DNA of 43,500 bases from Capnocytophaga gingivalis ATCC 33624 (lineage in GTDB: Bacteria; Bacteroidota; Bacteroidia; Flavobacteriales; Flavobacteriaceae). A program made the position numbers and the translations under genes. Numbering within the stretch: position 1 is the first letter of the stretch; each line of letters starts with the position of its first letter. The notes beneath the pieces were generated by a model. It searched no databases and was not told the DNA's origin. It worked only from the letters and a program-made list of their open reading frames with translations. Below, piece after piece: positions 10,463 to 18,995 of the stretch. Location: the NCBI RefSeq assembly GCF_000174755.1, contig NZ_ACLQ01000026.1:1-43500 (forward strand), written 5' to 3'.

Positions 10463-11836
10463 ATGGCGAAGACAAAAACCGCTTTTTTCTGTCAGAATTG
10501 TGGGGCTCAATATAGCAAATGGCAAGGACAGTGTTATGCCTGTAAGGAGTGGAATACCATTGTGGAAGAAGTAATCCAAAAGGAAGAAAAGCACCAATGG
10601 AAAAAGGACGATGAGTCAGATACTCCTCGCTCGAAGAAAACTAACAAATACATTCCCCTGCATGAGATTACCACGGAAAAGGAAATGCGATTGGACAGTG
10701 GTGACCAAGAACTGAACAACGTACTTGGGGGCGGGATTGTCCCTGGATCGGTGGTGCTTATAGGAGGCGAACCTGGAATAGGAAAAAGTACATTGTTGCT
10801 ACAGATTGCCATGCGCATGCCCTACAAAACCCTATATGTATCGGGTGAAGAAAGCCAAAAGCAAATCAAAATGCGTGGGGAGCGTATCACCAATGCCCGC
10901 AACAACTGCTATATACTTACCGAGACGAAGACTCAAAACATCTTCCAACAGATAAAAGAACTTGATCCTGAAATCCTTATCATAGACTCTATACAGACCC
11001 TCCACTCGGACTATATAGAGGCCTCTGCAGGAAGTATCTCCCAAATACGAGAATGTACAGCAGAGCTCATCAAATATGCCAAACTCACAGGAGTACCCGT
11101 GATCATTGTAGGGCATATCACCAAGGACGGTACCATAGCAGGCCCTAAAATATTAGAACACATGGTAGATACTGTTCTACAGTTCGAGGGCGACCGCAAC
11201 CATGTATTCCGTATCCTCAGAGCGCTGAAAAACCGCTTTGGTTCTACCTCCGAATTGGGCATCTATGAGATGCTTTCCACAGGCCTTAGAGAAGTGAGCA
11301 ATCCCTCAGAAGTACTGCTCTCCAAGACAGATGAAAACAGTTCTGGTACCGCCATTGTAGCTACTATAGAGGGTATGCGCCCACTCATGATTGAGATACA
11401 AGCCCTTGTGAGTAGCGCTGTATATGGAACCCCTCAACGCTCTACTACAGGATTCAATGCTAAGCGCCTGAATATGCTCCTCGCGGTACTGGAGAAGCGT
11501 GCAGGCTTTCGCTTAGGGAGTAAGGACGTGTTTCTGAACATCACAGGGGGTATCTCGGTAGATGATCCTTCCACGGACTTGGGTGTGGCTATGGCGATAC
11601 TCTCCTCCAACGAAGATGTGGCGATCCCTAAGACCTTTTGCTTTGCCGCCGAAGTAGGTTTAGGAGGAGAAATACGACCCGTACAGCGAGTAGAACAACG
11701 TATCTCGGAGGCAGAAAAGCTCGGTTTTGATACCATTTTTATCTCCAAATACTGTAAGCTCACCGCTGGTAAAAGCAATATCAATGTCATCACTTATGCC
11801 AAAGTAGAAGAGGTCATCGCTCACCTATTTGGCTAA
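10463..11836 (+). CDS. radA: DNA repair protein RadA
   Basis: This 457-residue protein is a RecA-related branch-migration helicase that helps extend strand exchange during repair and transformation. It has an N-terminal zinc finger (CQNCG and CYAC), a Walker A motif GGEPGIGKST near residue 100, the RadA-specific KNRFGSTSELG, and a C-terminal Lon-like domain that includes DPSTDLGVAMAILSS. Length is typical. It is divergent from trp and lies 97 nt before the YD-repeat array. No promoter was seen in that space, so the array may share its transcript. Confidence 0.97.
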   Translation: MAKTKTAFFCQNCGAQYSKWQGQCYACKEWNTIVEEVIQKEEKHQWKKDDESDTPRSKKTNKYIPLHEITTEKEMRLDSGDQELNNVLGGGIVPGSVVLIGGEPGIGKSTLLLQIAMRMPYKTLYVSGEESQKQIKMRGERITNARNNCYILTETKTQNIFQQIKELDPEILIIDSIQTLHSDYIEASAGSISQIRECTAELIKYAKLTGVPVIIVGHITKDGTIAGPKILEHMVDTVLQFEGDRNHVFRILRALKNRFGSTSELGIYEMLSTGLREVSNPSEVLLSKTDENSSGTAIVATIEGMRPLMIEIQALVSSAVYGTPQRSTTGFNAKRLNMLLAVLEKRAGFRLGSKDVFLNITGGISVDDPSTDLGVAMAILSSNEDVAIPKTFCFAAEVGLGGEIRPVQRVEQRISEAEKLGFDTIFISKYCKLTAGKSNINVITYAKVEEVIAHLFG

Positions 11837-11933: not shown

Positions 11934-12944
11934 ATGAAAAACTATTTATTCCCCGTTTTATTCCTTTTCTCTATTGTTATATGGGGACAAAATGATCCTT
12001 TACCGAGAAAAAATAGAAAAACACATAAAACAATAGGCGATTTTTTTGGAAAAGTAAAATCTCTAAGTTCTATTAGCTGTAAGGTTATAAACAATTATAA
12101 AGGAGATATCATAAGAACGACTTGTGAGAATTATGATCATGAATATTATTATCTTTTTGATGAAAAAGGTAATATAACTCAAACTAATAAATATGATAAT
12201 TCAAACAAACTCATAGAAGAGAAAAAATTTCTATACTCCTATAATGAAAATGACTTACTTATAAAAGAATTATATTATAAAAACAATGATTTGATAGGAA
12301 GCTATACTTACAAATATGACAAACACGCCAATAAAATAGAAGAAACCTATGAAGATACTCAAAAAAACTACAAATATATAAGAAAATATAAGTATGATAA
12401 CAAAAACCGCCTTATTTTTGTAAAAGAAAAAAACACCGATAGAGAAGACACACTCAATATTTTCAAAAGAACTTACAAAGATGATTTACTAATGGAAGAA
12501 TATTATGGAGAAAAAAACTATTCTTATACCCATACTTATTTCTATGAAAATAAAAAATTAAAAACTAAAAAAGAAGAAAGTAGCAGTTTTGAAGGGTGTT
12601 ATTTTACAAATACAGAAACTATATATACACACAATGACAAAGAACTTCCTATATCTTGTGATGTCTATATAAGTCATAAATTACAAAATAACATAACATA
12701 TGAGTATGATGAAAAAGGAAGAAAAATAAAAAATGTCTACACCTTTCCTGATGATAGTCAATATAATTCTTATGCTACATACCAATATGATAAAAAGGGA
12801 AATTTGATTGAAGAAAATAATAGTCGTCTTTCTCAAAAAATAATCTATTTTTATGACGAGCATAATAACTGGATCAAGCAGGAAGTATATTACAACGACA
12901 AACTATCCCATATCTACGAAAGAATCTTTACCTATTATGAATAA
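11934..12944 (+). CDS. Secreted YD-repeat (Rhs-like) protein 1 of array
   Basis: The ATG at 11934 is preferred because MKNYLFPVLFLFSIVIWGQ is a clean signal peptide. The mature part (about 315 residues) is made of successive YD-type units such as YLFDEKGNITQTNKY, YKYDNKNRLIFVKEK and YQYDKKGNLIEENN. It ends with YERIFTYYE, as its four neighbours do. YD/RHS units normally build a beta-shell around toxins in Rhs proteins, but no core motif or toxin domain is present here. Composition is strikingly AT-rich compared with radA. This is the most diverged N-terminus of the first four members. The function is not known. Confidence 0.85.
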   Translation: MKNYLFPVLFLFSIVIWGQNDPLPRKNRKTHKTIGDFFGKVKSLSSISCKVINNYKGDIIRTTCENYDHEYYYLFDEKGNITQTNKYDNSNKLIEEKKFLYSYNENDLLIKELYYKNNDLIGSYTYKYDKHANKIEETYEDTQKNYKYIRKYKYDNKNRLIFVKEKNTDREDTLNIFKRTYKDDLLMEEYYGEKNYSYTHTYFYENKKLKTKKEESSSFEGCYFTNTETIYTHNDKELPISCDVYISHKLQNNITYEYDEKGRKIKNVYTFPDDSQYNSYATYQYDKKGNLIEENNSRLSQKIIYFYDEHNNWIKQEVYYNDKLSHIYERIFTYYE

Positions 12945-13006
12945 AATATTTTAGTCTTATGAAACAGCTTTTAATTCCCTTTCTATTCTTTTGTATCACC
13001 ATAGTT
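12927..13006 (+). repeat. 80-bp direct repeat, copy 1 (gene 1/gene 2 junction)
   Basis: These 80 bases are identical to 15452-15531. They span the last codons of YD gene 1, the 14-nt spacer and the signal-peptide codons of gene 2. The two copies lie 2525 bp apart in direct orientation. Confidence 0.9.
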
Positions 13007-14131
13007 ACTCAAAATACAGCTAATAAAGATACTATTCCCTATAAAACAAACGAAAGATACGATCAGTTTTTTCCTAAACCTCTTCGTGGAAAAATAAAAA
13101 CGATCCATACGGTCGGTTGTAGGATAGAATATCAGGGAGATACTCCTGTTGCTGTATATCATCTTTTCCATAAGAATAAAATTAATCCTTATACCTACAC
13201 TTATCACTTTGATAAAAGAGGTAATGATATAGCTTTTTATACTTATGATGCGCTAGGAAATCTTATGGATTGGGAGATAAAAACATTCAATAAGGCAGAC
13301 AGTCTCACCTACCGAAAAATCTCTTATGTAATAGATAGTATTCGCCACTCTGCAGAAAGGTTCAATCTATATAATGATAAAAACTTACTTGTAGAGAGAG
13401 AAGACATAGACCGTTATGGTTCAAAAGTTTCTCTATATTTTTATAATGAGGCAGACAATATAATCAAAGAGGAAGACTATTATAAGGACAAATTATTCTA
13501 TACTGCTCTCTATACTTACGATGCTAAGGGTAAACTCCTCGAAAAAAAAGAAAAAGAGAAAAATCCTAAAAAACATTCCACTACTATATACGAATATGAT
13601 ACCTTAGGAAATCTTATTCGTATTACAGAAAAAGAAAAAGGAGAAAAAACCTATGTCCTTACCAATAGAATTTATGAAAATAATACACTTATTAAAGAAT
13701 ATGATGATCATTCCTACTTATTATACACTTATAAAGAAGGAAAACTTATAGAAACAGAAAGTTACTATACAGGAATAGGAATTGACTATATCATAGATAG
13801 AAAAGTTATTACAAAATATAACGAAAAAGGTCAAATAATTAAAAAATTAGAATATCAAGGAAATATTTTAGAGCAAGAAACGAACTATTTCTATGATGAA
13901 AACAGAAAAGAAATCAAAGGTACTTCTTATAAGAAAGGACAAGAAAAATCCACTTGGGAAAATAAGTATTCTCCTGAAGGATACCTTATAGAAAAAGCTT
14001 GGAAAAGGGAAAAAGGAAATCCAAAAACACTTTACTATTATGATGCTATAGGAAATTGTATCAAAATAGAGGAATATTATAAAGGAAAACTAACTAATAT
14101 CTATGAAAGAATTTTTACCTACTACAAATAA
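12959..14131 (+). CDS. Secreted YD-repeat (Rhs-like) protein 2 of array
   Basis: This 390-residue protein begins with the signal peptide MKQLLIPFLFFCITIVTQ, which is almost the same as that of gene 4. After NTANK comes a shared PKPLRGKIKTIHT block, then roughly ten YD-type units such as YHFDKRGNDIAFYTY, YTYDAKGKLLEKKEK and YEYDTLGNLIRITEK. It ends in IYERIFTYYK. It starts 14 nt after gene 1 and ends 12 nt before gene 3, so the set is presumably one transcript. No toxin, lipobox or type IX sorting domain is seen. The function is not known. Confidence 0.85.
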   Translation: MKQLLIPFLFFCITIVTQNTANKDTIPYKTNERYDQFFPKPLRGKIKTIHTVGCRIEYQGDTPVAVYHLFHKNKINPYTYTYHFDKRGNDIAFYTYDALGNLMDWEIKTFNKADSLTYRKISYVIDSIRHSAERFNLYNDKNLLVEREDIDRYGSKVSLYFYNEADNIIKEEDYYKDKLFYTALYTYDAKGKLLEKKEKEKNPKKHSTTIYEYDTLGNLIRITEKEKGEKTYVLTNRIYENNTLIKEYDDHSYLLYTYKEGKLIETESYYTGIGIDYIIDRKVITKYNEKGQIIKKLEYQGNILEQETNYFYDENRKEIKGTSYKKGQEKSTWENKYSPEGYLIEKAWKREKGNPKTLYYYDAIGNCIKIEEYYKGKLTNIYERIFTYYK

Positions 14132-14143
14132 TATTTTAGTCTT

Positions 14144-15469
14144 ATGAAACATCTTTTAATCCCATTTCTATTCATTACTACTGTAATAGTTGCACAAAAT
14201 ACAGCTAACAAAGTAGAAAAATACAAAATAGATTCTGACTTAGCTTATCCTTTTGAGAAACCTCTTTTAGGAAAAGTAAAAAAAGTACATACAGCTCACT
14301 ATTCTACAGTTGTAACTGTATTGAAAGATACTATCAAACGAGGACATTTTGTTGAAAATTATACTTATGGCTTTGATGAAAGAGGAAATGAAATAGAATT
14401 TATCAAGTATGATAAAGAAGGGAATATTTGGAATAAAGAAATAAAAAAATATAATGAAAAAGACCGTTTGCTCTATTCAAAAGAGACAAAAATCTTGGGT
14501 GAAGATGAAACTTATATAGAAGAAAACTCCTATTCATATAATGATAAAGGGTTTCTCATTGAAGAAAAAAGTTATGAAGAAGATCCTGATACAGGTATCT
14601 CCCATAGAAGAGAACTTTATAAATACAATAATGATCAAAAACTTATAGAAAACTCTTATTACTCAAATGATTCTTTGAAGAGACAAGTTCTTTATTGGTA
14701 TGATAATAAAGGAAATCTTTTAAGGAAACTTTTTTATCTTGATAATAAGCCATATACTGATACAAAATTTGAATACAATCATATCGGAAACCTTATAAAA
14801 AAGACTGAAAACTATATAAAAACAGATTATAAACACGTAAAACAATACGAATATGATGCAAAAAACAGACTTATTCTTTTTACAAAGGAAGATGATGATA
14901 CAAAAGAAATTATTTTAAAGATTATATATAAAGATGACTTAATTATAGAAATTTATGATAATAGAGATGATGAAGAGGTACATATTTTTTATTCTTACAA
15001 GAATAAAAAATTGATAAATAAAGTTATTTCTAAAAGTTTCTTTAATGGATGTTATTATGATTATATCAAAGAGAAGATTTTATATGATGAAAAGGGTCGT
15101 ATAAAAAAATCATTTGATTACAAACAAAATAAAATAAAAAAAACCTACACCTATTATTACGATAACAAAGACAGAGTCATAAAGACAGAGCTATTATATA
15201 CAGGAGACAAAAAGGAATATTGGATAGATAATTATGACACAATAGGAAACCTAATAGAAACTATTTATAAGAACAATGATTATAGAGACAAAGATAGCTA
15301 TACTTATGACAACAACAATAACTTGCTTTCTAAAATAACTTACAAAGGAAATAAAGCAATAGAAAAAACATTTTATACTTATGATAAGTACCAAAATATT
15401 ATAAAAATAGAAAAATATAATAATGGAAAGAACTATATTTACAAAAGAACATTTACCTATTATGAATAA
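14144..15469 (+). CDS. Secreted YD-repeat (Rhs-like) protein 3 of array
   Basis: This 441-residue protein has the signal peptide MKHLLIPFLFITTVIVAQ and then NTANKVEKYKI, KPLLGKVKKVHTAHY and about thirteen YD-type units. Examples are YGFDERGNEIEFIKY, YWYDNKGNLLRKLFY and YEYDAKNRLILFTKE. A FNGCYYDY segment interrupts the regular pattern in the last third and recurs in genes 1 and 4. The last 60 residues nearly match the end of gene 4, ending IYKRTFTYYE. It is most similar to gene 4 over its whole length, so these two are the youngest duplicates or are homogenised by gene conversion. The function is not known. Confidence 0.85.
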   Translation: MKHLLIPFLFITTVIVAQNTANKVEKYKIDSDLAYPFEKPLLGKVKKVHTAHYSTVVTVLKDTIKRGHFVENYTYGFDERGNEIEFIKYDKEGNIWNKEIKKYNEKDRLLYSKETKILGEDETYIEENSYSYNDKGFLIEEKSYEEDPDTGISHRRELYKYNNDQKLIENSYYSNDSLKRQVLYWYDNKGNLLRKLFYLDNKPYTDTKFEYNHIGNLIKKTENYIKTDYKHVKQYEYDAKNRLILFTKEDDDTKEIILKIIYKDDLIIEIYDNRDDEEVHIFYSYKNKKLINKVISKSFFNGCYYDYIKEKILYDEKGRIKKSFDYKQNKIKKTYTYYYDNKDRVIKTELLYTGDKKEYWIDNYDTIGNLIETIYKNNDYRDKDSYTYDNNNNLLSKITYKGNKAIEKTFYTYDKYQNIIKIEKYNNGKNYIYKRTFTYYE

Positions 15470-15531
15470 AATATTTTAGTCTTATGAAACAGCTTTTAAT
15501 TCCCTTTCTATTCTTTTGTATCACCATAGTT
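15452..15531 (+). repeat. 80-bp direct repeat, copy 2 (gene 3/gene 4 junction)
   Basis: Identical to 12927-13006 and placed in the same way across a gene end, spacer and signal peptide. Recombination between the copies would remove genes 2 and 3 exactly and keep both flanking frames. Confidence 0.9.
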
Positions 15532-16887
15532 GCTCAAAATACAGCTAACAAAGTAGAGAAATACAAAATAAATCCTGCTATAAATGATGAGTTCAAAAAA
15601 CCTCTTTTAGGAAAGGTAAAAACTATGCATACTGCCCATTATTTTATAGAGTATAATAAATATGACACTATAAAAAAGGAGCTTTTTGATAATAATTATA
15701 CTTATGGCTTTGATAAAGAAGGAAGAGAAATTCTATTTATCAAATATGATATGCACGGCAATATAAGTAGCAAATATGAAAGGAGATACAACGAAAAAGA
15801 TAGTCTTATTTATCTAAGAGAATTTATATGGGGAGAAAACTTTGGAACTTATATAGAAGAAAAATCTTATTTCTATAATCCATTAGGACTATTACAAGAA
15901 TTAAAAGGTTATAGTCTTAAAGAAAGTGATCCCCTTTCTCTTTACCGAGAGCTATACAAATATAATGACAAGCAACAGCTCTTAGAAAGTCATTATTACA
16001 ACAAAGATACACTCACAGAAACTGCTATCTATTCTTATAATAACAAGGGAAAGCTTATAAAGAAGCTTGATTATTCAAAAGGAAAATTACGCTCTGAATA
16101 CAAACTTGAATATGATGAAAGAGACAACCTTATCAAAAAAGATTATTATTTTACACAATTCTCTATCAGTCAAAAAAGTATCACTAAGTACCAATATGAT
16201 GACCAGAACAGACTTATCTTGGCTACAGAAAATATAGATGGAGATGAGAATATTCTCATTAAGAACATTTATAAAGACAACTTACCTATAGAAATTTATG
16301 AGAAGAATAGAAGTGGAGACGAAATACATATATTTTATCATTATAAAGACAACCAACTTATAGAAGAAAAATCTACCAGATTTTTTAATGGACATTATTA
16401 CAGTACTACTAAAGAAAAAATACAATATGATGAAAAATGTCGTATAAAGAAATTCTATGATTATGAAGGAAAAGAAATAGCAAGAACTTATATTCATTAT
16501 TATGATGATAAGGATAGAATAATAAAAACAGAACTATTATACAGCAATAATAAAAAAGAATATTGGACAAATAGTTATGATATGGCTAATAATCTTACAA
16601 AAACTATTTATAATAATAATAAAGAAGCCGATAAAGATATTTATAGATATGACAAAAACAATAACTTACTCTCTAAAATAATTTATAAAGGAAATAAAGA
16701 AGTATATAAAGTACTTTATACTTATGACAAAGATAATAACTTACTTTCTAAAACAACTTACAAAGGAAATAAAGCAATAGAAAAAACATTTTATACTTAT
16801 GATAGCTATCAAAATCTTATCAAAATAGAAAAATATAATAACGGAAAGAACTATATCTACGAAAGAACTTTTACCTATTACGAATAA
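15484..16887 (+). CDS. Secreted YD-repeat (Rhs-like) protein 4 of array
   Basis: At 467 residues this is the longest member. The signal peptide MKQLLIPFLFFCITIVAQ and NTANKVEKYKI are followed by PLLGKVKTMHTAHY and about fourteen YD-type units. Near the end, a 25-residue unit (YDKNNNLLSKIIYKGNK, then YDKDNNLLSKTTYKGNK) is present once more than in gene 3, which explains part of the extra length. The C-terminus is YIYERTFTYYE. The spacers on both sides are 14 nt. The repeats predict an elongated beta structure outside the cytoplasm. The function is not known. Confidence 0.85.
   Translation: MKQLLIPFLFFCITIVAQNTANKVEKYKINPAINDEFKKPLLGKVKTMHTAHYFIEYNKYDTIKKELFDNNYTYGFDKEGREILFIKYDMHGNISSKYERRYNEKDSLIYLREFIWGENFGTYIEEKSYFYNPLGLLQELKGYSLKESDPLSLYRELYKYNDKQQLLESHYYNKDTLTETAIYSYNNKGKLIKKLDYSKGKLRSEYKLEYDERDNLIKKDYYFTQFSISQKSITKYQYDDQNRLILATENIDGDENILIKNIYKDNLPIEIYEKNRSGDEIHIFYHYKDNQLIEEKSTRFFNGHYYSTTKEKIQYDEKCRIKKFYDYEGKEIARTYIHYYDDKDRIIKTELLYSNNKKEYWTNSYDMANNLTKTIYNNNKEADKDIYRYDKNNNLLSKIIYKGNKEVYKVLYTYDKDNNLLSKTTYKGNKAIEKTFYTYDSYQNLIKIEKYNNGKNYIYERTFTYYE
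16648..16872 (+). repeat. 75-bp in-frame repeat inside YD gene 4 (three units)
   Basis: TAT codons opening the YD units lie at 16648, 16723 and 16798, exactly 75 bp apart. The first two units are closely similar in DNA. Gene 3 has one unit fewer at the same place, so one unit was gained or lost. Confidence 0.75.
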
Positions 16888-16901
16888 AATATTTTAATAC
16901 T

Positions 16902-18098
16902 ATGAAACATTTTTTATTTATCTTATTATTTTATTTTTCTTCTTGTTTTTATGTATCTCTTCTGTCTCAAGAAGATGACCCTAATAGATATACTAACGAA
17001 CATCTTAGAAACTTAGGTATTACTCCTCAAGGGAAAGTAAAATCAGTAGAGAAATTTATTTATCACTATGACACTAAAAATGGGAAAGAGGCAAAGATAT
17101 TCCCTAAAAATGCCAAAGTAGAACGCATGCCCGTACACAGCCGATACGTCTTTGATAAAAAGGGAAATATCATAGAATTTTATAACTACTATACCGATGG
17201 AAAACTTTTCCAAAAGATATTTTACCAATACAACACGGACAATCTACTTACAAAAGCTGATGAATACAAATACATAGAAGAAAACAATCCCCAGCTCACA
17301 GAAGAAGAAATTTTCTACGAGGGAAAAGTAATGATCTCTAAAAAATACAAGATTGATGGTATTTTATCTAAAGTAGAAATGTTATTTGATAAAAACAAAA
17401 GGAAAAAAGCTATTTTGGAATACAGAAATGATACACTTATCAATAAAAAGAAGTATTCCTATAATAGTAAAGGGAATATTACACACGAAAAAAACAAATC
17501 TACCAGTCTTTTAAGTGATGAAGCTAATGAGACTTGGTATAAATATACTAAAGAAGGTACACTAGTTGCTGAAAAGAAAGAATGCTATTCTATGTTTTGC
17601 TTTTATACTACTTACCAATATTTATCCAATGGTGAAGTATATGAAGAGACTACCTATACAACACCTTTACACGATGATAAAGATATCTCTGATAAGAAAA
17701 CAAAATACTACATCTATGACTCCAAAGGAGCTATAGTAGAGATACAAATATACAAAGGAAAAGAATTTCGTTCCTATCATTGTATTGAAAATGACAAGGA
17801 AGTAGAAAGTTATAGTTATTTTCTAGAAGGAGAGGTTAGAAAGACTCTTTTTTCTTACAATAAGGATAACCAACTTATCAAGGAAGAAAATTTTGATTTA
17901 CTCAATGGAAATTTTATTTCTGGAACGTATTATACATATGATGAGAAAGGAAATTTGCTACAAATAAGTGATAAACCTACTTCCTCTCCTAATAGAACAA
18001 TTTACCACTATGACAAATACAATAACTGTACAGAGGAAATCTATTACAAGAATAATAAGCGTGCTGCCGTTGTAGAAAGAATATTCACCTATTATTAA
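16902..18098 (+). CDS. Secreted YD-repeat (Rhs-like) protein 5 of array
   Basis: This 398-residue protein is the last and one of the most diverged of the array. Its signal peptide, MKHFLFILLFYFSSCFYVSLLSQ, differs from the others, but the spacer before it is nearly the same 14 nt. PQGKVKSVEKFIYHY matches the GKVK block of its neighbours. YD-type units such as YVFDKKGNIIEFYNYY, YTYDEKGNLLQISDK and YHYDKYNNCTEEIYY follow, and it ends in VERIFTYY. The SSC in the signal region is not a proper lipobox. The function is not known. Confidence 0.84.
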   Translation: MKHFLFILLFYFSSCFYVSLLSQEDDPNRYTNEHLRNLGITPQGKVKSVEKFIYHYDTKNGKEAKIFPKNAKVERMPVHSRYVFDKKGNIIEFYNYYTDGKLFQKIFYQYNTDNLLTKADEYKYIEENNPQLTEEEIFYEGKVMISKKYKIDGILSKVEMLFDKNKRKKAILEYRNDTLINKKKYSYNSKGNITHEKNKSTSLLSDEANETWYKYTKEGTLVAEKKECYSMFCFYTTYQYLSNGEVYEETTYTTPLHDDKDISDKKTKYYIYDSKGAIVEIQIYKGKEFRSYHCIENDKEVESYSYFLEGEVRKTLFSYNKDNQLIKEENFDLLNGNFISGTYYTYDEKGNLLQISDKPTSSPNRTIYHYDKYNNCTEEIYYKNNKRAAVVERIFTYY

Positions 18099-18123: not shown

Positions 18124-18483
18124 CTACTTATCAAAGACAAATGCTAAAAAGCATCCTGTAGCATAGCAAAGAATATCTTCAAAAGAGAAATAATTTCCTA
18201 GCAGAATATACCCAAGGGTACCTTTGCCAAAGCCAAAGAAAGCTGCCAGTTTAAAGTATTGTAGTATCTCTACAAATACGGCAAAGCAGAAAATCCCTAT
18301 AAGTAATTTCTTGGTGTTCTTGATATGAAAAAAAGCTCTAATAAAACAATAGATGAGTATTACTACCAAAATATCTCCTAAGTATGCCCTTACAAAGGGA
18401 ACACTCTTGAATACAGTGGCTATGGCTACCTCTACCAAAAAGATAATTAGGGCAGCGAAGAAGTATTTGGAATTGAATTTCAT
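18124..18483 (-). CDS. DUF2809-family membrane protein
   Basis: This 119-residue protein has four predicted membrane helices and the DUF2809 pattern: FVRAYLGDILVVILIYCFI, FAVFVEILQYF and YFSFEDILCYATGC. The acidic residues within helices (GD, EILQ, ED) are characteristic of this VanZ-like family, whose role is unknown. Its start overlaps the stop of the Nudix gene by 4 nt, so the two form one transcript. It converges with the YD array 25 nt away. Confidence 0.8.
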   Translation of the reverse strand: MKFNSKYFFAALIIFLVEVAIATVFKSVPFVRAYLGDILVVILIYCFIRAFFHIKNTKKLLIGIFCFAVFVEILQYFKLAAFFGFGKGTLGYILLGNYFSFEDILCYATGCFLAFVFDK

Positions 18484-18995
18484 TGGTTTAAGTAATATTT
18501 TTCAATGACTGTTTTTACAGAGACAAAACCTATTTTACCTAAGTCTATTTCAGATATGGGAATCCATTGTAAAGACTTGATTTCATCTTCCGCTCTTACA
18601 GAAACAGGGACATCCAAAGGACATTCATAAAAAATATCCATAGTACGATAAGGAATATTTTTGTACAAATAGTGATTGGGCTGGGTAGTAAGGTATTTTA
18701 GCTGATTAGATACTATCTGCAAACCCAATTCCTCATTTACTTCACGACAAACAGCGGCTTCGGCATTCTCATCAGGATCTATAAATCCCCCAGGTAAGTC
18801 AAGCTTGCCCTTGTCTGGGTCTATATTGCGCACTGTAAAAAGGATTTCATCCTTACGCCTAAAGATAACCGCTACTGCAGCAGCTATATTGTGATAATAC
18901 ACAAAGCCACATTGGTGACAAAGAAAACGTACCAAGCGAGGAAACTCGACATCTGTGCTGCCACAATGAGGACAATAGGTAAAAATATTCTCCAT
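18480..18995 (-). CDS. Nudix hydrolase with N-terminal zinc ribbon
   Basis: This 171-residue protein starts with a zinc ribbon (YCPHCG and FLCHQCG) and continues with a Nudix fold. The Nudix box is GGFIDPDENAEAAVCREVNEELGL in shape: G-x5-E-x7-REVxEELGL, complete. The layout resembles NudC-like or ADP-ribose/NADH pyrophosphatases, but the substrate cannot be told. A TACCTTTG -7 element lies about 20 nt upstream. DUF2809 follows with a 4-nt overlap. Confidence 0.9.
   Translation of the reverse strand: MENIFTYCPHCGSTDVEFPRLVRFLCHQCGFVYYHNIAAAVAVIFRRKDEILFTVRNIDPDKGKLDLPGGFIDPDENAEAAVCREVNEELGLQIVSNQLKYLTTQPNHYLYKNIPYRTMDIFYECPLDVPVSVRAEDEIKSLQWIPISEIDLGKIGFVSVKTVIEKYYLNQ

Follow-up and report, generated by a model that had tools for sequence, protein, structure and literature searches.

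Repeats of the YD or Rhs type are known chiefly as walls that enclose toxins. A short hairpin relative, DUF4595 (PF15283), is found in Bacteroides proteins with a fold called "porin-like", and 4ghb and 3tzg are presumably members of it. The window analysed here, a stretch of 43,500 nucleotides (nt), corresponds to contig C12 of the Capnocytophaga gingivalis ATCC 33624 genome (2.66 Mb, 37 contigs) and contains, adjoining radA, a tandem array of five genes for short YD-repeat proteins. The array is a real feature and represents a single locus within a wide family of short, capped and apparently exported YD sheets that is expanded in Capnocytophaga and sparse elsewhere in Bacteroidota. The new and surprising part is that this array appears to have moved recently between species and to have been shuffled at the repeats in its gene junctions.

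A preliminary description of the window had reported five tandem paralogous open reading frames (ORFs) at this place, and this was borne out with proteins of 336–467 amino acids (aa) and intergenic spacers of 14, 12, 14 and 14 nt (Table 1); the ORF list opens gene 1 at an upstream TTG (11865). The proteins of genes 2–5 share 28–37% identity with that of gene 1, and those of genes 3 and 4 share 60%. Each of the five starts with a signal-peptide-like stretch, as had been described, which was assigned by eye (MK.., a hydrophobic stretch and then ..AQ or GQ). The "PLxGKVK" block that had been reported for all of them was found in three (PLRGKIK, PLLGKVK and PLLGKVK), but gene 1 has FFGKVK and gene 5 TPQGKVK. 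Similarly, the conserved ends were confirmed in all five as an ERxFTYY-type end, albeit with letters that depart from the proposed IYERxFTYYE (IYERIFTYYE, IYERIFTYYK, IYKRTFTYYE, IYERTFTYYE and VVERIFTYY). When Pfam and NCBIfam matches were taken at E ≤ 1, which are mostly incomplete above an E value of about 0.1, four of the five proteins passed the gathering score of RHS_repeat PF05593, gene 5 reaching 14.2 bits against 22, and one passed the cut-off of the YD repeat TIGR01643, so the assignment to YD/Rhs-type repeats holds. The Rhs-associated core TIGR03696 matched none of the five, although it does match other places in the same genome, and no toxin model was among their matches; all five end in the shared cap. 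Thus, the reported lack of core and toxin was upheld within these searches. Models of the type IX secretion C-terminal sorting domain and of YwqK/MORN-type repeat antitoxins were likewise absent from these matches, the C-terminus being the shared cap.

These results give good support to a common architecture, in which a leader precedes a GK[VI]K strand at the N-terminus, YD beta-hairpins then follow one another in a chain, and a "YD...N.....ER.FTYY" cap closes the C-terminus. The AlphaFold model of gene 2 is an all-hairpin sheet similar to the shell walls of Rhs proteins and teneurins, a similarity found by profile too, and the prediction that the array proteins fold as one antiparallel sheet, like a piece of such a wall with neither core nor toxin found, is well supported. 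A closed shell takes several hundred to more than 1,000 residues, and the 336–467 aa of the array proteins would presumably not suffice for one. An outer-membrane beta-barrel, the strands of which would have one uncharged membrane-facing side, was considered and is not supported; charged residues amount to 33%, and 17 of the 27 strands in the gene 2 model are charged on both faces. The leaders suggest that the proteins cross the inner membrane, and the earlier wording "secreted/extracellular" is retained to that extent only. No lipobox-like pattern was seen in genes 1–4, and gene 5 has FSSC, the Cys of which has no counterpart in its orthologue. For surface lipoproteins, K-(D/E)2 after the lipobox is given as the export signal in the excerpted text of PMC5080379.

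The array does not stand alone, and a short hairpin relative, DUF4595, is already in Pfam. A family profile (A4), built from 14 diverse members, matched 35 segments at E ≤ 1e-3 in the array genome, which correspond to 26 ORFs at 17 places. Two of these are fragments (108 and 167 aa) on contig C37, and the other 24 measure 190–495 aa, with completeness uncertain for those on C27 and C37, which lack a leader as read, and for the short one on C28. The tandem sets comprise five, three and two genes. Lipobox-like patterns occur in some members (C16, C35, C36 and both C4 genes among others) and plain leaders in most others. On C36 (L051:5748-7232), a lipoprotein-like gene of 495 aa carries two family domains in a row and has an orthologue in oral taxon 338 (L124:5770). 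On C37 (L047:7284-10246), a 452-aa family ORF without a visible leader is followed by the two fragments, which belong to another member; this set is apparently a decaying tandem copy.

In every one of the 20 genus genomes the same profile gave between 1 and 30 matching segments at E ≤ 1e-10, many of them end to end, which is more than chance would give. At E ≤ 1e-15 it was found in at least 17 of 147 genomes from other genera of the same bacterial family (149 were searched, two being Capnocytophaga, and at most 16 candidates per genome were scored). In a phylum sample of 198 genomes including the array genome, with at most 12 candidates scored in each, at least 5 of the 197 others had matches, all five from other bacterial families. 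The plan, with a leader followed by an (L)xGKVKSV strand, then YD hairpins and lastly "YD..GNW.......ERxIxYY", was also seen in 53 ORFs; since the filter that selected them required both caps, they illustrate the plan but are no proof of it, and the end-to-end profile matches are the independent support. In a tree made from these 53 ORFs by a quick method, the array proteins form one group (SH-aLRT branch support 93) with genes 3 and 4 as the nearest pair, and long branches lie outside the group. Among 16 family members searched against Pfam at E ≤ 0.1, 13 matched RHS_repeat. No recurring partner gene was seen beside the listed members, and a literature search over open-licence papers found none on this family. 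The position directly after radA is taken by the array or a remnant of it in 3 of the 20 genus genomes and by another gene in 16, and in one the contig ends there. This last contig (C56 of the related-species genome G015, L118) stops 62 bases past the radA match, where the array would be expected to start, possibly an assembly break caused by repeats.

The history of the locus was followed by comparison mainly with Capnocytophaga sp. oral taxon 338 F0234 (L053) and oral taxon 863 F0517 (L054), using one genome per species. In gene order, radA is followed by the array, a DUF2809-like gene, a NUDIX gene and then comM; we base these gene names on the translations. Against oral taxon 338, the synonymous divergence (dS) was 0.26, 0.19, 0.36 and 0.35 for genes 1, 2, 3 and 5, with protein identities of 82, 93, 78 and 89%, respectively, and 0.14 for the small DUF2809-like gene inside the putative tract, whereas in the flanks it was 0.65 for radA, 0.88 for the NUDIX gene, 1.8 for comM and 2.0–3.1 for the next three genes. 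Low dS in the array against high dS in the flanks argues that the array was probably exchanged between oral Capnocytophaga species, and recently, with homologous replacement through the flanks as the simplest route. The exchanged tract probably begins in the 3' part of radA, where dS drops to 0.23 in codons 361–400 and 0.12 in codons 401–440. Identity per 150 nt is 0.82–0.92 over most of radA, rises to 0.93 and 0.98 at its end, spans 0.73–0.99 in the array and falls from 0.94 to 0.85 past 18.55 kilobases (kb); a tract of about 7 kb has probably been replaced, possibly by several events. Slow evolution was ruled out as the cause of the low dS, because the array proteins are less alike (78–93%) than RadA (98%) although the dS of the array is lower. 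The paralogue pairs within the array have a dS of at least 1.2 in 10 of 10 comparisons. The array has a guanine-plus-cytosine (GC) fraction of 0.266 and the remainder of the window one of 0.405, the corresponding values for the oral taxon 338 contig being 0.279 and 0.357; a donor of lower GC is likely. In oral taxon 863, what remains of gene 2 differs from gene 2 of the window by a dS of 0.36, and nearby genes by 0.65–2.1 or to saturation, apart from one small gene at 0.45.

Recent exchange was seen at 3 of the 10 family loci that have gene pairs in both genomes, the array and two others (Table 1), and the remaining seven are about as diverged as their neighbours. For the three-gene array on C30 the flank comparison refers to the right side, since the left flank differs in oral taxon 338. 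The lipoprotein-like gene on C4 sits in both genomes between IS630-like and ISAs1-like transposase genes, as we presume them to be, in different surroundings; the ISAs1-like gene is truncated in oral taxon 338. The YD-family gene between the two transposase genes is nearly identical in the two stretches (L136:2988-6686 on C4 and L130:4975-7853 in oral taxon 338), and the whole looks like a mobile unit flanked by insertion sequences (IS). Counted by gene, a synonymous difference below 0.5 was found for 8 of 16 family pairs versus 5 of 40 other pairs, namely radA, the DUF2809-like gene, the two transposases by the IS-flanked gene and a sucD-like gene (0.48); gene pairs are linked, and the locus count is the fairer one. 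Array gene 4, which has no orthologue at the array locus of oral taxon 338, and the family ORFs on C35, C31, C27, C22, C16 and C28 and the second on C19 enter neither count; none of them could be paired within the 11 oral taxon 338 stretches taken from among the matches listed. The two-gene locus on C3 showed no exchange (0.78 and 0.73), and thus a tandem layout alone is not the rule.

Each of the four gene junctions is spanned by a 119-nt repeat (family D1) that covers the end of one gene, the spacer and the leader of the next. Over its first 72 nt, gene 2 is closer to gene 4 (94% identity) than to its own orthologue (83%), and the body of gene 2 is 0.92–0.99 identical to the orthologue in six of eight 150-nt windows. 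Other blocks show no swap: gene 1 matches its orthologue at 93% over the first 72 nt, and at their ends genes 1 and 2 match theirs at 88 and 94%, respectively. An exchange of leader and end blocks between array genes through the junction repeats is supported by this pattern, and the shared ends would be due, at least partly, to such recombination. Gene content also differs. Oral taxon 338 has a lipoprotein-like gene of 279 aa at the position of gene 4, and oral taxon 863 has an eroded array (L054:7941-9486), in which the upstream region of gene 1 is followed by a gene 2 body broken by a frame change; of the lipoprotein-like gene, 99 aa remain there, with the N-terminal part joined directly to the C-terminal cap.

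Table 1. Positions of the array genes, their junction repeats and flanking genes in the window, and of the other family loci with signs of recent exchange. Names of flanking genes are presumed from translations.
Feature	Position	Strand	Remarks
Array gene 1	11934-12944	+	336 aa counted from ATG; signal-peptide-like start, GKVK cap, YD hairpins, IYERIFTYYE end
Array gene 2	12959-14131	+	390 aa; AlphaFold model confidence (pLDDT) 83
Array gene 3	14144-15469	+	441 aa; identity to oral taxon 338 orthologue is a mosaic along the gene
Array gene 4	15484-16887	+	467 aa; relative of gene 3 plus one repeat unit of ~25 residues
Array gene 5	16902-18098	+	398 aa; most diverged member; RHS_repeat below cut-off; model pLDDT 66
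Junction repeat copy 1 (gene 1/2)	12910-13028	+	reference copy: gene 1 end, 14-nt spacer, gene 2 leader start
Junction repeat copy 2 (gene 2/3)	14095-14213	+	69% identity to copy 1
Junction repeat copy 3 (gene 3/4)	15435-15553	+	95% identity to copy 1
Junction repeat copy 4 (gene 4/5)	16853-16971	+	66% identity to copy 1
radA	10463-11836	+	left flank of array
DUF2809-like membrane protein gene	18124-18483	-	inside the putative exchanged tract; dS 0.14
NUDIX-type hydrolase gene	18480-18995	-	divergence back up (dS 0.88)
Probable exchanged locus 2 (three-gene array on C30)			dS 0.32, 0.12, 0.74; right-flank genes 2.7 or saturated
Probable exchanged locus 3 (single lipoprotein-like gene on C4)	L136:4341-5426		dS about 0

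The selection acting on the array is purifying and looser than that on housekeeping genes, as judged from the ratio of nonsynonymous to synonymous divergence (dN/dS) against oral taxon 338, which was 0.33, 0.17, 0.33 and 0.16 for genes 1, 2, 3 and 5 and 0.015 and 0.021 for radA and comM. The preliminary description had called the family diversifying and had counted ordinary purifying selection among the findings that would speak against it. The term fits the gene content, which differs between species, and the recombining junctions, but not the codons, where purifying selection was in fact seen.

The reading that we favour, although we give it slightly less than an even chance, is that the array encodes exported ligand-binding proteins of the surface or the periplasm. 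The leader would export each protein, placing a Tyr- and charge-rich sheet outside the inner membrane, where it may bind an outside ligand such as a glycan, a peptide or a protein of a neighbouring cell. Several diverged and exchangeable copies could extend binding to more kinds of ligand in the mixed biofilm of the mouth, with the locus carried between oral Capnocytophaga species by replacement through its flanks and the junction repeats letting the genes trade leader and end blocks. Several observations weigh against this account. With no lipobox shared in the array and no type IX tail found, the periplasm is as likely a location as the surface; and dN/dS of 0.16–0.33 shows no excess of amino-acid change as a recognition surface might. 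The uneven identity within the array (0.73–0.99 per 150 nt) makes a single clean replacement too simple. Among the 50 Foldseek matches listed, no TM-score to a whole shell exceeds 0.44 of the query; the repeat is like that of shells, and any likeness in global shape is tentative. The gene 5 model is weak (pLDDT 66).

An exported polyimmunity locus is a possible though somewhat unlikely alternative, in which each protein would block a toxin delivered by a neighbour, in the periplasm or at the surface, and the array would be a stock of swapped orphan immunities. Tandem diverged paralogues with no toxin gene between them are the layout of a homogeneous polyimmunity locus, and C. gingivalis is named among the mouth bacteria that are rich in immunity genes and poor in toxins, both in the excerpted text of PMC3482391. 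The excerpt of PMC11854122 proposes a DUF4595 lipoprotein in a type VI locus of B. fragilis as a potential immune protein, and 2 of the 16 family members searched match DUF4595 at E ≤ 0.1. The recent exchange at three loci, one of them IS-flanked, agrees with this reading, as do the Rhs-core tips that the array genome keeps without a long Rhs protein and the small gene with one YD-like unit upstream of those on C30. Such tips lie on C30 (L120:5316-9756), about 8 kb from the three-gene YD array, and on C14 (86505-88984); their ends are short and diverse, and they alternate with small genes in the manner of toxin/immunity cassettes. The gene upstream of the C30 tips (L120:5316-6158) gave no match to the family profile. 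Yet the nearest profile-matched family gene is about 8 kb from a tip on C30 and 17 kb on C14, a PADLOC model was touched by 1 of the 16 members (E 0.045), and we know of no tested immunity protein of the YD type. Moreover, 8 of the 20 genus genomes have family matches and no Rhs-core match, and thus the family is more than an adjunct to Rhs toxins. The same eight genomes speak against decayed or trimmed Rhs elements, that is, pieces of shell genes briefly kept after loss of core and toxin, which we disfavour as very improbable. The repeat type is the same, Rhs-core matches occur in 12 of the 20 genomes and the array is eroded in oral taxon 863, but the proteins have their own leaders and N- and C-terminal caps, which are found also in other Bacteroidota genera, and are under purifying selection.

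That selection also agrees with periplasmic house-keeping or scaffold proteins for envelope structure or the handling of polysaccharides or lipoproteins, in which case the array size would be a by-product of duplication. Family matches in all 20 genus genomes, members among genes of housekeeping appearance and the seven of ten loci as diverged as their neighbours point the same way. We nevertheless consider this unlikely, with segment numbers that vary from 1 to 30 per genome, a place after radA that holds the array or a remnant in 3 genomes, another gene in 16 and is unreadable in one, and recent exchange at three of ten loci. More speculative, and quite unlikely in our view, is a recombining cassette system of exported, toxin-free Rhs-like sheets, with bodies and leaders swapped via the junction repeats, the locus replaced via flanking genes and the copies serving as interchangeable recognition or toxin-blocking proteins; YD sheets would then serve defence or kin recognition and not as toxin shells. 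The array locus is likely to matter in contests or contacts within dental plaque, and the immunity reading, if true, would mean a new kind of exported immunity protein.

Among the known systems, RHS_repeat (PF05593) and TIGR01643 proteins have the same Y-x-Y-D-x-x-G-N hairpin unit, over the cut-offs in four and one of the five array proteins, respectively, which have a leader, caps and repeats and no further domain found. Rhs polymorphic toxins, the Tc toxin C component and teneurins have the sheet of YD hairpins in common with the array by profile and fold, but the chains found measure at least 660 aa, in contrast to 336–467 aa in the array with no Rhs core or toxin found. From DUF4595 the five differ in that none matches PF15283 at E ≤ 1; one DUF4595 protein is listed in the planktonic secretome of Prevotella intermedia, according to the excerpt of PMC8980031. 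Polyimmunity loci, as the excerpted text of Zhang et al. 2012 (PMC3482391) presents them, share with the array the tandem diverged paralogues uninterrupted by toxin genes and the oral taxa with an excess of immunity genes; the array, itself a set of tandem paralogues without intervening toxin genes, differs in matching no known immunity family, having no linked toxin and carrying leaders. Compared with all of these, the present family appears to use the wall alone, seemingly exported and passed between oral species, and may thus offer a compact system for the role of the YD sheet itself.

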